Below are positions 12,314 through 48,500 of a stretch of 53,697 bases of DNA, piece after piece. Each line of letters begins with the position of its first letter. The stretch's first letter is position 1. Source of the DNA: Bacteroides sp. (lineage in GTDB: Bacteria > Bacteroidota > Bacteroidia > Bacteroidales > Bacteroidaceae). The stretch is from positions 1-53,697 of the forward strand of contig JAGOOC010000017.1 of assembly GCA_017992695.1 (NCBI GenBank), in the 5' to 3' direction. Both the position numbers and the translations under genes were made by a program. The notes under the pieces are model-generated. The model did no database searches and was not told the origin of the DNA. It worked only from the letters and a program-made list of their open reading frames with translations.

Positions 12314-13528
12314 ATGAAATTCAAAACGACTGCGCTTTGTCTGTGCCTGATGAATTTATTCTGGGCATGCGGACCAACTGCCGAGCTTCCCGAACCTCCT
12401 AATCCCAATCCTGCACCCGAGTTGGCAAATCGTACTGTGCTTGCCTATGTGCTAGCCGACAATTCGCTAACCTCTTTTTCGTTAACCGATTTGGATGAAA
12501 TGCTCGAGGGGATAAAAACGGTTGATACGAAGCAGAATAACTTGATTGTGTACATGGACCGTAGGGATGGCGGCACTTCCCAACTGATTCGGATTTGTCG
12601 AAACTCGAACGGGGAGATTATCAAAGACACGATTCAAACGTATGAAGCTTCGCGCAACTCGGTAGGAATAAATGAAATGGAACAGGTGTTTACCTATACC
12701 GTTGATCATTTCCCGGCCCAAGGTTATGGTCTTGTTTTGTGGTCGCATGGAGATGGCTGGATTCCTTATTCGAATACCAAGACGCGTTGGATTGGACAAG
12801 ATGAAAACAAAGGAACCATGGATAAGCGGTTGAATATTGACGAGCTACACACCGTTTTAAAATCAATACCTCGGCTCGATTTTCTGCTCTTTGATGCTTG
12901 CTACATGCAGTCGATCGAGGTCGCTTATGAGTTGCGCGATTGTGCCGACTACTTTATCGGTTCTCCTACCGAGATTCCCGGTCCGGGTGCTCCTTATCAG
13001 ATGGTAGTTCCTGCCCTGTTTGCTGTTTCTGCTCCTGAAACACATACTCTTTCAAGTTCTATCGCTTCGGCTTACTTCGATTACTATAAGAATAAATACA
13101 CAGGAGCTTTCCCCTCCGATGACAATTGGGTAGGTGGAGTTTCCATGTCTGTCATTCAAAGCAATAAATTGGATGCACTGGCAAGTGCCACTCGTGAGTT
13201 ATCAATTTATTCTCAACCCGGCATTAATCGAATGGAAATTTTGTGCTATGATCCACTTCGAGAACGCAACTATTACGATATGGATCAAGTTATGAAGGCA
13301 ACTGTAGGCGACACTCCCGCTTATCAGAACTGGAAACGTTTCTATGATGCTGCCGTGATTTACAAAGAAACAACTCTTTTGAACTACAATACATACGCTA
13401 CGGGTAGCGGAAAGATGGTTTCAATGGATGGTTTTACCGGTGTTTCTACCTATATATGGGGCAGTAACAGCAGCTATCAGAGCTATTACGAGAAGCTTTT
13501 GTGGTATCAGGATATGCAAAAGAAGTAA
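12314..13528 (+). CDS. Clostripain-like (peptidase C11) lipoprotein
   Basis: With the start at 12314 this is a 404-residue lipoprotein: a hydrophobic signal ends at Cys19 (LFWACG), followed by a proline-rich linker. The C11 catalytic dyad is visible: His145 in LWSHGDGW and Cys196 in FDACYMQS, each in the family's usual context. Clostripain enzymes cut after Arg (or Lys) and are often self-activating. Bacteroides relatives are secreted or surface proteins. An upstream in-frame GTG/ATG series reaches back into the preceding gene (12227), but the signal peptide fits only the ATG at 12302 or 12314. A 22-bp repeat array begins 22 bp after its stop. Confidence 0.85.
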   Translation: MKFKTTALCLCLMNLFWACGPTAELPEPPNPNPAPELANRTVLAYVLADNSLTSFSLTDLDEMLEGIKTVDTKQNNLIVYMDRRDGGTSQLIRICRNSNGEIIKDTIQTYEASRNSVGINEMEQVFTYTVDHFPAQGYGLVLWSHGDGWIPYSNTKTRWIGQDENKGTMDKRLNIDELHTVLKSIPRLDFLLFDACYMQSIEVAYELRDCADYFIGSPTEIPGPGAPYQMVVPALFAVSAPETHTLSSSIASAYFDYYKNKYTGAFPSDDNWVGGVSMSVIQSNKLDALASATRELSIYSQPGINRMEILCYDPLRERNYYDMDQVMKATVGDTPAYQNWKRFYDAAVIYKETTLLNYNTYATGSGKMVSMDGFTGVSTYIWGSNSSYQSYYEKLLWYQDMQKK

Positions 13529-13550
13529 GCTCTACCCTAGGTAAACAGAC

Positions 13551-13682
13551 ATTACGTCTTTTTGCAACATGCTTTATGTCTTTTTGGAACATGTTTTTCG
13601 TCTTTTGGAAACACACTTTACGACTTTTTCAAAAATACGTAAAGTGTTTGCTGTAAATAAGTTACATATTTTCACAAATTGA
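13551..13682 (+). repeat. Degenerate tandem array, 22-bp period (locus 1)
   Basis: At least four units follow at exactly 22 bp: their ACGTCTTTTT-like cores have the key G at 13556, 13578, 13600 and 13622. The core reads ACGTCTTTTTG, ATGTCTTTTTG, TCGTCTTTTGG and ACGACTTTTTC. Up to two weaker units follow, to 13682. ACACTTTACG (13613-13622) pairs perfectly with CGTAAAGTGT (13638-13647) across a 15-nt loop, so the fourth unit faces an inverted fifth one. The units are too divergent and too short for a CRISPR. The hairpin may also end transcription of the clostripain-like gene. Confidence 0.7.
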
Positions 13683-13816
13683 TATTTGAATACAGATAAT
13701 CCTTAACAGCAAGCAAGTCTGTTGTTTAAGCAACTGATTCATCTGCGGTTTTACACTAAGGAATGTTATCTTAGATAAAAAAAGGAAAACTTAGTGCATC
13801 CATAACGTTTTTTGAC

Positions 13817-32727: not shown

Positions 32728-32839
32728 TTAAGATGTAACAATTTTCCTGCAAAGACAGAACAGCTTTTTTCAAAGACGTAACAACTTTAAAAGAAAGCAG
32801 TTATATCTTTTAAAGCAACACGCCGAAGTGTTTTTACCT
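32686..32839. repeat. Degenerate tandem array, about 22-bp period (locus 2)
   Basis: Repeated units of the type AAGACGTAACAACTTTT: matching G positions lie at 32708, 32732, 32754, 32775 and 32797 (spacings 24, 22, 21, 22). The minus strand reads ACGTCTTT, the same core as the array at 13551. The first unit is inverted against the second, making the terminator hairpin with a 15-nt loop, the same loop length as in locus 1. Weaker similarity continues to 32839. Confidence 0.65.
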
Positions 32840-36856: not shown

Positions 36857-36934
36857 CCCGAAAGCTTGCTTTTCGGTGTTGGATGTGTTATATTTGTAAC
36901 CATAATCCTTCAATAGATTCCGGTAAACCAACGT

Positions 36935-36968
36935 AAAAGGGAGAGGCGCGCAGCCTCTCCCTTTTTTT
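36935..36968 (+). terminator. Perfect intrinsic terminator after the esterase gene
   Basis: AAAAGGGAGAGGC (36935-36947) pairs with GCCTCTCCCTTTT (36953-36965), loop GCGCA, then a T run. Confidence 0.9.
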
Positions 36969-36988
36969 ATTGAAAACGCTGTACAGGG

Positions 36989-37164
36989 GTGGAATGAACG
37001 GTTCTCTCGGGTGAAATGAACCGTGCATTCGGTCGAAATGAACCGTTCTCGGCGATGAAAAGAAGTAATCTCTCGGTCGAAGTGCAATAAGCATTCGACC
37101 AAAGTCGCGGTGCCTCTCGAAAGGAGTCGCGGTGTCTCTTGACGAATGCTTAATAATTGCTTAA
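36989..37164. repeat. Degenerate tandem array, 22-bp period (locus 3)
   Basis: Eight consecutive 22-bp units can be laid out without gaps from 36989. Early units share GAAATGAACCGT and end in CTCGG or TTCGG; later units share AGTCGCGGTG and end in CTCTCGA or CTCTTGA, so the array drifts in sequence along its length while the period stays fixed. TAAGCATTCG (37088-37097) pairs perfectly with CGAATGCTTA (37143-37152). It is GC-richer than loci 1 and 2 and does not share their core. It lies between a terminator and the end of the S41 gene. Confidence 0.75.
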
Positions 37165-37213
37165 GCGTTGGCGGCAAGTTTTAATAATCCGTAAAACTGC
37201 TCTTGACAAAATA

Positions 37214-38587
37214 TCAAAGTGTTGTATTCTCTTTCGTCTTTCGGCTAGGCGTATGAATTACCTCTTTTACCTTCATCGAAGGGGTTTGGGCAACTGCCTT
37301 AGTCGGCTTAATGGTTCCGTCAATCAGTCCGATAACTGTGCCAAGTAGTGCTTCGTTCTTATCACCAAAAGGGAGGAATTTGGAGAGGTCGGTGGTTTCG
37401 TTTACCGTTTGAGCAGTAGTAAAACTGCCACCACGTCCCGATTCTTTTAGGCTGTTAAACACTTCGCAGACCACCGGGTTTAGCGACCATGTACCCTGCG
37501 GATTGTCAAAACGATCGGTAGCTACACCGCTGCAAGAAACGCTGCTACCTACCAATGCCCACCGTTCAAGTGGTAACAATAGGTTGAGCAGAACCCCCGA
37601 AACACCTGCCGTTTCGCCCGAAGAGAGGATGAACCCTTGCGTAATGTTCAAGTTACTACCCGATCCAATCAGTTGAGAATCAAACATCAGCGCGCTATTT
37701 TTGCTCGCTTGTTTGTCATTGTATGTCAAACTACCCAAAGGGCTTCCCAGTAGGCTTTTGGGTGCTACCAACGCACACAGCAGTTGTGCACACGCTAACG
37801 AGCCTCCTCTGTTGTAGCGCATATCGAGAATCAAGTGAGTAACCCCTGCCTCGGCAAATTCGCGCGAGATGGTTCTCAAGCGGTCGTTGTATTGCTCAGG
37901 GTTGGTGGCCGTTCCGGCCGTGAAGTGGCTGTATACAATATAGCCTGCCTTTGTGCCGTTGGCGGTAGTGATCACTTGGTGATGATGCACGGGGTCGTCC
38001 TCTACAACTGCTGCGGCGCCCAGTGTTGCGGTTCCGCTCTTCACCACTATGCCTACTTGCTCTTGCGTTTCGGGGTCAGCTTGCACGGTGTATGCGCCCA
38101 GTTGCAAGCTTAATGCCAAGCCCGTTTCGAATAGCTTTGATTCGTTTTTTGAAGTGATTACCTTGTCGTTTACCTGCATAATCCAGTCTCCACGCTTTAA
38201 TCCGGCAGCCGCGGCAGGCGATTGGGGCAGAACGTAAGTAACCAGAGCGTTATAGGCTGTGTCGTTATCGGCTACCCGATAGAGACTATAATCGAACCCG
38301 TAGGTTGGTAGCGGCTCTTTGTAAAGGGTGTCTATATACGAAGTGTTGTTGTCCTCTTTAGAGACCACCGCTTTGAGAAAAGCATCGGGTGCTATAAAGA
38401 AATTCAGTTCCTTTTCTTTGGGCATGTCCTTGTACCACAGGTAGTTCTCACGCATTACTTCGGCGATCCATTGGTCTACTTCGGTCTCGGCAGCATACTC
38501 TTGCCAGCGATCTACGCCACACGAGGTGAGGCCGGGTAGCGTGGTGATGAACAGGGTAAGAGTGAGTAGTATGTTTCTTGTTTTCAT
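37214..38587 (-). CDS. S41-family (C-terminal processing type) peptidase lipoprotein
   Basis: A 457-residue lipoprotein; lipidated Cys23 in LTSCGVD. An N-terminal cap (about 30-110), a PDZ domain (about 115-185, VLPQSPAAAAGLKRGDWIMQVND) and the S41 core with THLILDMRYNRGG and FILSSGETAGVSG, where a Ser of ILSSGE is the likely nucleophile. It is typical of Bacteroides S41 lipoproteins, which act in the envelope or on the surface. The C-terminus is an unusual Thr/Lys-rich tail. Confidence 0.87.
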   Translation of the reverse strand: MKTRNILLTLTLFITTLPGLTSCGVDRWQEYAAETEVDQWIAEVMRENYLWYKDMPKEKELNFFIAPDAFLKAVVSKEDNNTSYIDTLYKEPLPTYGFDYSLYRVADNDTAYNALVTYVLPQSPAAAAGLKRGDWIMQVNDKVITSKNESKLFETGLALSLQLGAYTVQADPETQEQVGIVVKSGTATLGAAAVVEDDPVHHHQVITTANGTKAGYIVYSHFTAGTATNPEQYNDRLRTISREFAEAGVTHLILDMRYNRGGSLACAQLLCALVAPKSLLGSPLGSLTYNDKQASKNSALMFDSQLIGSGSNLNITQGFILSSGETAGVSGVLLNLLLPLERWALVGSSVSCSGVATDRFDNPQGTWSLNPVVCEVFNSLKESGRGGSFTTAQTVNETTDLSKFLPFGDKNEALLGTVIGLIDGTIKPTKAVAQTPSMKVKEVIHTPSRKTKENTTL

Positions 38588-45567: not shown

Positions 45568-48500
45568 TTATCTGTTCACTTTTATGCGCCCGGCTTTGGT
45601 GCGTGCTTGTGCGTTTACATCGTACATGGCCTCGCACTGTACGGCAGGCAACACGAACTCACCGGCATAGGTGGCTTGCAGGCGAACGGTGAACGTCTTC
45701 GACTCTCCCTCGCGCAAGTCGAAGTAGGTGAGCACACGGTCGTCGCGGATATCTTGGTAGCTGTAATTTAGTGAAGCGGTTTGTCCGGCTAGTCGCTTGT
45801 TGTATATCTCCCATCCCGAAGGAATGATATGCGTCAGTGCTACGTTTGTATAGTCGGTTGTACCGCTTACGTTGGCTACGGTTACCACGGCTTGGAAATC
45901 GGTTCCTTGCTTCAGTTGCTCCACGTTGATGGCGGCTCCGTTAAGGTCGGTGTAGCGCACATCGAGGCGGAGGTTGTTCGACAGAGCAGGGAGGGTATCC
46001 TTCAACAGCTGTGTGCGCACAATTAAGTCTACTTTCAATGCACCGCTTCCTTGTTGCTTCACTGTTACCACGCCGTTTCGAGGCGATGTAGCGATGGAGG
46101 CAGTGTAGATGGGCTTCGCCGATTTCACTACCGGTTGCTGTTTGCCGTTAAGCGTCCAAGTGAAGTGAAGTGTGCCCGACATGGATTCGGCCAGTCGGCC
46201 CATGGCCAATAGCGAGAAGGCGGTAGACTGGGTGCTGAATGCGCTTTCGTTGGCTAAGTTGTTCGACACCCTTTGAGCCTGCGTAAGTGCCTGTTGGTTA
46301 CGCTTCATCAGCAGCAGGGTTTCCAAGATCATTGCTTCGTCGCGCCCACTCGACCCGTAAACGGGATTGTTGGGCGAGTAGGGGGCAACGGTGGTTTGTG
46401 CCTTATACACCAACTCCTCTGCCGGCTTCATTTTGCCGTTTAAGGCGTATGCAGCTGCCAGTCGCCAGCGTGCCTGAGGCGATAGATCGGTCATCTCTTT
46501 CATTCGGTTCATCGCACCCGGCTCGGGCGATGCTGCCAGCGCAAGGGTGTATAGGCGGTAGGCCTGTTGCATAGCTGTCTGTTGGTAGTCGGTGCGCTGT
46601 GCTCCGCTTAGCGGTTTCTTGTTTTGTGCTTCGCTCAGCGGTTTCCAATTTTGTGCCGCCATGCGTTGAAAGCGCTTCCAGCGCTCTAGCACGGAGGCGT
46701 TTACTGCATATCCCTTTTCCTGTGCCAAGGCTAGAAACATACCCGCATAGGAGGTTATCCATTCGTTGGCTGCTGCATTTCCCGGCCAGTATACGAATCC
46801 GCCATTAGGCAGTTGGCGTGCATACAGTTGCCTGATGGCTTCCTGAATACTGGTTTGCGTGGCTTTGGTCTCTGCATCGGTCAGGACTTTGAACCGGGCG
46901 AGGTAGAGCAGGGGCAAGGCCTTAGAGGTGAGTTGCTCAGTGCAAACATGGGGGTAGTCAGTGAGAAAATCCATCCGGCGGCTCAGGTCGACTGATGGCA
47001 GACGCGATGCTTCGAGTCGAATGCTGCTCTCTGCTGCTGTAGCACCTGCCTGCTTGTTCGAGGCTGCACCTATAGCCGAGTTTGCTGTGCTTTGTAGGGC
47101 ATAGGTTAGTTCGGCTTGTTGGCCGCTCTCTATCCACTTGCTCTGACGCAGGGTAATAGCGGGGTTGGGGTTGCGTACTTCTATTTCGATGGTCTCTTTC
47201 GTGGTTTGTCCGCCACCACTCGCTGTAAGGAGGATAGTCTCTTTGCCAGTCTTCGCACCGGTTTTTAGTCGAAAGAAGAGCAGTTGGTCGCCCGTCTTGG
47301 CAAAGCGAACCGTCTGGTGTGGGGCGCCTGCCAGCTGCACCTTGCCCAAGGTTGAGGCTACCGAAACGGTTACCTCTTTCACGTTGTTTTCCATAGCAAA
47401 CACGTTGACAGGTAGCAACACCTCTTCTTGCGTGCTCAGCACACGGGGTAAGGTGGATAGCAACATGAGCGGCGTGCGCACGGGGGTTGTTTTTTCCGCT
47501 TCGCCGTAAGCGCCGTCTTGTCCTGCCACGACCATGGTGCGCACACTGCCTACATACATGGGTAGGGTGATGCGGTGCGTTTGGCTCTTTCCCTTGCCCA
47601 AGGCAAAGGGGCCGAAGAATTTCACTATCGGCTTGAAGCGGTTGGCTTTGGCATCCGATGGTTTCAGTGCCTCGTCGCCACCGGTGCTGAATAGTGCACT
47701 GTAACTGCCGCTAAAGGCACCCAATACACTATCAAACATGTCCCACGTGCGTATGCCAAGGGCTTCGCGTGCGTAGAAATCGTTCCACGGGTCGGGTGTT
47801 TTGTAGTTGGTCAAGTCGAGCAACCCATCGTCTACAATCGCCAGGGTGTACGTCATCGGTTTGCCGCTCTTTTCACTTACGCTCACGGTGAATGGTGTCT
47901 CGGGGCGTAGCACGGAGGGCATACTGATTTGCGGTTCGAGCACCGTTTGGCGGTTACTCACAAATACAGGCATCACGCCATACATGCGGATGGGTAGGTC
48001 GTTTACCGTTTGCGCATGAGGTTGCAACAGGCTCACGTGCAGGTATACATTGGGCGCCATCTCGGGCGTTACCTTAAACTGATACTTGGTATCGCCTTTG
48101 GGCGACACGTCGATCCATTCGCGATGCATCACTTCCGATCCATTCTCTAGAACGATCAAGGCGCGTCCTCCGGCTGCAGCAGGGATGATGGCGGTTGCCG
48201 TTTCGCCCGGCTCGTATCTCTCTTTATCGATGGAGAAGGAGAGCATCGTGATGCCGCTGGGGTCTGTCTTGTTCGAGCGTCCGCGCCAGTCGGGCCAGTC
48301 TACATAGATGGTTCCTCCGGTGGCGTGTCCACTCTCTCGGTCTTTGACGTAGACTAAGTAGCGCCCCCAGTCGGGGTAGTTTACACGAAAGCGAATTTGT
48401 GCCTTTCCGCCTTGCGTGCTCAGCTGCCCGGTGGCTACGGGGGTGTAGGCACTGCTGTTGATGTAGGTTTCAAATGACTCGTTGGCATTGCTCCACCACC

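Follow-up and report, generated by a model that had tools for sequence, protein, structure and literature searches.

A 22-bp Tandem Array in Bacteroides Belongs to a Dispersed Intergenic Element with a Predicted sRNA-Like Gene and a Conserved Tail

The window analyzed here is the whole 53,697-nucleotide stretch of Bacteroides sp. contig JAGOOC010000017.1 (assembly GCA_017992695.1). The initial annotation described an array of 22-bp units at 36989 to 37164, behind a complete terminator; that observation was sound, and the structure is larger than first described. As judged by comparison of its copies, the array is the second module of a dispersed intergenic element of ∼350 bp that occurs several times. 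The order of the predicted parts is well supported: a promoter, an sRNA-like gene, and its terminator make up module 1, the 22-bp array is module 2, and a 31-bp tail is module 3. Three points had been overlooked: the terminator is part of the sRNA-like gene, a conserved tail closes the array, and the whole composite is dispersed. Our main reading, to which we give a probability of roughly 0.4, is that the array of this composite element consists of helically phased putative sites for a DNA-binding protein and that its units are gained and lost locally. In the window, the element has the following parts:

36864 to 36896, plus strand: Bacteroides-type promoter, with a TTG box at its left and TATATTTG at 36889 to 36896, directly 3' of the esterase stop codon.
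36902 to 36970, plus strand: sRNA-like gene of ∼65 to 70 nt (start inferred), with an intrinsic terminator (stem 36935 to 36965, T run to 36968).
36975 to 37164, no strand assigned: 22-bp array of about eight units with a gradient, from the lag profile, shuffles, and unit listing.
37180 to 37210, plus strand: conserved tail of 31 bp, consensus GTTAATAATnCATAAATCTGCTCTTGACAAA, with 3 mismatches in this copy.

Within 36989 to 37164, identity at a lag of 22 was 0.565; lags 44 and 66 gave 0.46 and 0.49, and the remaining lags from 5 to 69 gave 0.144 to 0.351 (the highest at lag 62). None of 2000 dinucleotide-preserving shuffles reached 0.565 (maximum over lags 10 to 60, at most 0.425), so the reported array is real by the comparison with chance that the initial annotation had itself singled out. 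The interval fits eight 22-bp units exactly, the eighth being weak, and the local identity threshold was passed by a lag-22 segment at 36952 to 37151. The described gradient is likewise visible in the listed units, which change from GAAATGAACCGT-type at the left to AGTCGCGGTG-type at the right. We call the units of this array class A; the near-palindrome AATGMACSGTKCATT is present in the left ones.

The complete terminator said to lie just before the array is present and was found by a terminator scan. Since the promoter and the sRNA-like gene separate the array from the esterase, the array is probably not part of the esterase message, as had been proposed. The promoter, which from the consensus is probably of the sigmaABfr type, was conserved in alignment A2 and in the logo of 80 element copies. 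In the same copies, all 13 pairs of the terminator stem showed changes on both sides, and the whole structure had 201 cells with two-sided changes against 52.8 in shuffles, in an alignment that was fitted to the same structure. Rfam release 15 returned no family at gathering score for the window (two weak matches, with E values of 0.87 and 3.2, were far below it), and a tRNA/tmRNA search of the window found none. At 11 element loci, no Rfam family was found near the elements; the only matches were a tRNA and sub-threshold miRNA-like matches in L131, where a strong hairpin-like stretch (L131:200-279) matched miRNA families below threshold.

Copies of the element were located with a covariance model of the promoter and sRNA-like gene, R1, built from 15 sequences that include all seven copies of the window's own genome. 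The window copy, itself one of the 15, matched at 36864 to 36969 with 90.6 bits. In its own genome, model R1 found seven strong copies (E ≤ 1.7e-15; the next match was at 0.02, with the best 150 of 1415 candidates scored). An array and a tail lay 3' of all seven, the arrays having lag-22 identities of 0.53 to 0.83 and at most 0.44 at eight control lags. In an alignment of nine loci at the esterase site, the promoter, ∼65 nt ending in the terminator, and, on the far side of the array, a motif around CTGCTCTTGACA were conserved. With up to one mismatch, the 12-mer CTGCTCTTGACA occurred 11 times in an 800-kb sample of the genome, 7 times adjoining class-A arrays and 4 times elsewhere; its five exact occurrences in the genome were at five of those seven places. 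Three class-A arrays (L046, L061, and L063) had no adjoining sRNA-like gene. Conservation of the tail was restricted to ∼33 to 40 positions in 76 copies, and, by eye, both ends of the element bear CTTGAC in direct orientation.

Model R1 matched 39 of 75 Bacteroides genomes at E 1e-6, with 1 to 27 copies each; these copy numbers are lower bounds because only the top candidates were scored. In a sample of the order, 2 of 149 genomes matched, both of the same genus. The assignment to Bacteroides draws on a congener, G001, that has the flank of B. faecis L017. The 80 copies examined came from 16 genomes: G000 7/7, G021 2/2, G102 1/1, G149 4/4, G017 13/18, and G055 13/27, and, picked among the better-scoring matches listed, G157 10/27, G110 5/7, G155 5/9, G014 5/7, G073 3/7, G063 3/4, G076 5/24, G061 2/2, G095 1/2, and G128 1/1. 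L135 (E 0.02, with neither array nor tail) was excluded from all element counts. The tail, allowing up to 7 mismatches of 30, was present in 76 of the 80 copies (38/40 in the first set and 38/40 in the second) and was missing from L150, L156, L212, and L241. The best lag was 22 in 60 copies (35/40 and 25/40 in the two sets), 21 in 10, 44 in 3, another value in 7, and 23 in none. All ten lag-21 copies belonged to the second set, and G157, in which 9 of 10 copies had a best lag of 21, supplied nine of them.

At the esterase site, array and tail were present in 10 of 26 readable congener loci. One locus (L114) had an array without a tail, and 15 had neither, including L105 with a decayed array; 3 of 30 loci (L120, L124, and L126) lacked the anchor. 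Behind the esterase in B. faecis (L017) and in congeners (L100 to L104, L106, and L108), eight aligned loci in all carried arrays whose units were unlike those of the window array and whose period was identical. Among 26 named loci at this site, a clear lag-22 signal was seen in L017 and in L033, from a Prevotella MAG. The tail-less array of L114 is made of 22-bp GTGCCA/TGGCAC units, and a similar unit occurs in L085:13553-13640. In L112 and L118, a long inverted repeat of CAATATATGTAATGCCCC type lies 3' of the esterase, where others carry the array. We also considered carriage by phages or plasmids and rejected it: BLAST of L166:1480-1900 found no match in the phage and plasmid collections, and window positions 36864 to 37220 had none in the plasmid collection.

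Arrays of this period also occur apart from the element, and the window holds two more:

13515 to 13691, no strand assigned: second strong 22-bp array, located directly beyond the end of an ORF and built of unrelated units; identity at lag 22 reaches 0.742 over 66 bp.
32730 to 32818, no strand assigned: weak 22-bp array that follows a terminator-like hairpin and is flanked by convergent ORFs; lag-22 identity 0.53.

Both are unrelated to the array at 36989 to 37164, whose units the initial annotation had described as unrelated to those of its first two loci. Model R1 had no match at the array at 13515 to 13691, which showed dyad symmetry (p 0.002). The 800-kb sample of the genome comprised the window and 40 stretches, 20 of them from contigs chosen for BLAST matches. 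At a threshold of 0.62, with low-complexity segments left out here and in the congener and control scans, lag 22 led with 17 segments, followed by lag 44 with 9; no other lag from 10 to 60 had more than 4. At the same threshold, 100-kb blocks of five congeners gave nine segments at lag 22 (2, 2, 2, 0, and 3), three at lag 21, and two at lag 23, and 323 kb of named Bacteroidales loci gave nine at lag 22 versus one each at 21 and 23. The 22-bp period is common to arrays that differ in both sequence and locus and come from several genera. In 100 kb of E. coli MG1655, no segment appeared at lags 21 to 23 at 0.62 (one at lag 18) and one appeared at lag 21 at 0.56; in 120 kb of G032, from another family of the order, lag 21 gave one segment at 0.62 and three at 0.56, and lag 22 gave none. 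The listed lag-21 segment of G032 looks coding by eye.

Class-A units gave 14 BLAST matches, at ∼10 loci, in the genome of the window, and 40 relatives had no match. A further unit, class B (GTTTC-N8-GAAAC plus AAAA), gave 29 matches at ∼20 places of the genome. By simple ORF calls, the arrays lie between genes (overlap with an ORF of ≥120 aa was seen for 1 of 19, versus 89% of random places), and convergent ORFs flank 7 of 16 classifiable arrays versus 20% expected, which is suggestive only. Three four-unit class-B arrays of ∼88 bp (L178, L179, and L180, at C13:19216, C31:7052, and C10:12495) of the same genome are 89 to 90% alike and have no evident common flanks, as though the array were itself mobile; that of L178 lies 3' of an ORF that by eye resembles a helix-turn-helix protein. 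A Mediterranea MAG carries a 23-bp array of ACCCGTTGGTTGGGGGTCAATCG type (L010:207-412), with the period of the BrickBuilt repeats discussed below. At 46598 to 46656, the window also has 2.2 copies of a 27-bp tandem repeat, outside the 22-bp set.

Folded in 22 columns, 21 of 26 arrays without an sRNA-like gene (hand-picked from the lag matches) showed dyad symmetry at p < 0.05. Of the sRNA-linked arrays, 70 of the 80 entered this test, 10 being excluded for weak lag identity; the signal there was moderate, with 24 significant and 46 not, and a further sRNA-linked array, in L017, gave p 0.8. In 45 class-A units, pairing exceeded expectation at positions 4/12 (p 0.0016) and 1/15 (p 0.038), with one pair slightly below expectation, and in 40 class-B units, pairing at the four inner position pairs was not significantly over chance (p 0.07 to 0.98), unlike the covarying stem of the terminator. 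Eight of 12 array folds were well below their own shuffles (z −4 to −8.4), and four were weak or absent; the z values were −4.3 for the minus strand of the window array, −1.4 and −1.7 for its plus strand, −0.2 for L166, and 0.0 for L227. One array, L079:17615-17702, folds to a ∼26-bp stem, as might result from template switching during the copying of units. Hairpins would predict both the class-A pairing excess and the strong folds. Given the dyad symmetry, the lack of a significant pairing excess in class B, and the absence or weakness of 4 of the 12 folds, we favor, with modest confidence, the view that the units are putative binding sites of a dimeric protein on duplex DNA rather than hairpins.

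Across 66 homologous arrays (terminator-to-tail gaps of tailed copies, excluding G157), mean identity fell from 0.445 between neighboring units to 0.382, 0.337, 0.301, and 0.275 at two to five unit steps, against a baseline of 0.255, as local duplication predicts. The lengths of these gaps cluster near 188, 209, 230, and 251. At the esterase site they were 191, 201, 201, 213, 213, 212, 212, and 212, and the window has 211; among paralogues and orthologues (one genome per species), array lengths differ in steps of ∼21 to 22 bp and also of 11 bp. Within the range of 9 to 26, gene-to-tail distances of the tailed copies were best described by a period of 10.4 to 10.5 bp, better than by 11. When genomes were resampled without G157, the period was 10.1 to 10.6, and 10.5 was not above 11 in 0.3 to 0.4% of resamples. 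The phasing statistic R was 0.72 at 10.5 and, close to it, 0.70 at 22; phasing was weaker (0.55) when distances were anchored at the T run. A distance period of ∼10.5 bp fits selection for helical phase, which mixed 21- and 22-bp units could partly imitate. From the constant period of changing sequences, the initial annotation had argued either for selection on spacing or for copying with a fixed 22-bp step. The former fits, since the period stays constant while unit sequences change; the latter is unsupported, given the 21-bp lag of G157, on which we rejected it, the 23-bp arrays, and the fit of distances to 10.4 to 10.5 bp. The sRNA-like gene persists in L105, L150, and L156 although array and tail have decayed or disappeared there, and hence it can be retained without an intact array.

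A literature search, open access in the main, found no description of these arrays. The closest known kinds are BrickBuilt and BIME/REP arrays; the period sets the element apart from the former and the transposase of the RAYT model from the latter. According to the available sections of its report, BrickBuilt of Porphyromonas gingivalis is a MITE/minisatellite with a 23-nt unit and 19 copies in ATCC 33277; it has leaders of up to 285 nt, tails of up to 318 nt, small inverted-repeat ends, flanks with promoter activity, and lengths that vary between strains by repeat number, and BLASTn gave no match outside P. gingivalis (PMC4596501). Like BrickBuilt as described there, the arrays are gapless, imperfect, intergenic short tandem repeats whose leader differs from their tail (PMC4596501). 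In architecture, as distinct from sequence, the layout of conserved leader, repeats, and different conserved tail is shared, with the tail in 76 of 80 copies. However, the Bacteroides element has 22- or 21-bp species-specific units (best lag 23 in 0 of 80 copies), and its leader is an sRNA-like gene with a terminator, a kind of leader that those sections of the BrickBuilt report do not describe (PMC4596501). REP/BIME arrays, in the available part of their description, are intergenic rows of palindromic units with one motif at many loci, as class A (∼10 loci) and class B (∼20) are, and carry a GTAG or CGTC tag at one palindrome end (PMC3733652). Palindromic intergenic units are indeed what we found (dyads in 21 of the 26 arrays lacking the gene, ORF overlap in 1 of 19), but the Bacteroides arrays keep a strict two-turn period. 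The RAYT model of REP/BIME involves a RAYT-type Y1 transposase in the genome. In G000 (99.82% complete), PF01797 (Y1 transposase) had 0 matches, with 5 of 14 controls positive, and we rejected RAYT/REPIN on this ground. A CRISPR array was also rejected: the units are gapless, 22 bp long, and drift along the array, with no unique spacers.

For module 1, the multicopy FopS sRNAs were the nearest comparison. As far as the available text describes them, they are ∼65 to 70 nt long, with 14 copies in B. thetaiotaomicron and 12 to 15 in B. caccae, B. uniformis, and B. xylanisolvens; they have a canonical promoter, an unstructured 5' part, and a terminator hairpin, are mostly intergenic, carry an R1 seed, and bind RbpB (PMC11697453). 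The sRNA-like gene resembles them in its canonical promoter, length (start inferred), and terminator hairpin. In contrast to 12 to 15 copies, our model found at least 2 in G021 and at least 1 in G102, two genomes in which the esterase site of B. faecis is also present and which we take to belong to the B. thetaiotaomicron group (best 150 of 4878 and of 4787 candidates scored). On these disagreeing copy numbers, we provisionally rejected FopS identity, and a distant relation may exist.

In our main reading, a protein-row mechanism that we infer from these patterns, the array would be a row of dyad-symmetric putative sites spaced two helical turns apart. This spacing would place copies of one dimeric DNA-binding protein on a single face of the helix. 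Their binding would be cooperative and next to the sRNA terminator, and the tail would lie in phase at the other end of the array. Units would be gained and lost through local duplication and deletion, which would produce the gradient; their motif would drift with the protein or be replaced species by species while the spacing is held. A neutral or selfish BrickBuilt-like minisatellite, whose array would lengthen and shorten by replication slippage and hairpin template switching, with no function of its own and a shared period of historical origin, is a somewhat unlikely alternative with the following evidence in its favor: similarity decays with unit distance, units invert in register to give long inverted repeats (∼26 bp in L079; also L155), 88-bp class-B arrays (∼90% alike) sit at three loci without evident common flanks, and arrays are lost or decayed in L105, L150, and L156. 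What it accommodates poorly is the 22-bp period common to unrelated arrays at unrelated loci in several genera, which one ancestor does not readily explain, and the helical phasing of lengths.

The arrays might instead act as RNA, with read-through or antisense transcripts forming rows of hairpins that stabilize, terminate, or sponge. We regard this as improbable: the strong signal in 8 of 12 folds, including a z of −4.3 for the window's minus strand, together with the start of some arrays just behind gene or terminator ends, are offset by the weak plus-strand fold in the window, the near-zero values of L166 and L227, the lack of significant covariation in class B, and the strong-looking terminator that precedes the window array. 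Slightly more improbable is an outward promoter in the tail, with the array as its upstream control region. The tail contains TTGACA, followed 19 nt on by a weak TAnnTTTG peak (mean, 2.62 of 6), and in the window TTGACA-16-TATTCT matches a sigma-70-type promoter at 10 of 12 positions, where 0.7 such sites are expected by chance; at the peak's spacing, 7 of 76 tails match 5 or more of the 6 positions, but the other 69 fall short, and the 23 bp preceding TTGAC hold much of the conserved sequence.

Going beyond the phased protein sites of our main reading, we offer as an unlikely but specific conjecture that the element represents a new class of Bacteroides control element, in which an sRNA gene and an end motif would be held in helical register by two-turn protein sites that are rewritten in each species together with their DNA-binding protein, and in which the free-standing rows would be sites of sister proteins. 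A further outcome of the analysis is an sRNA-like family that occurs in many copies, has a covarying terminator, and matched no Rfam release 15 family at gathering score in the window and none near the elements at 11 loci. Sequences turn over while a 21- to 22-bp step is kept, both at the same loci and among unrelated arrays, which amounts to a natural experiment on DNA spacing. If they are the protein sites we propose, these arrays would offer a direct route to a DNA-organizing protein or regulator of major gut bacteria.
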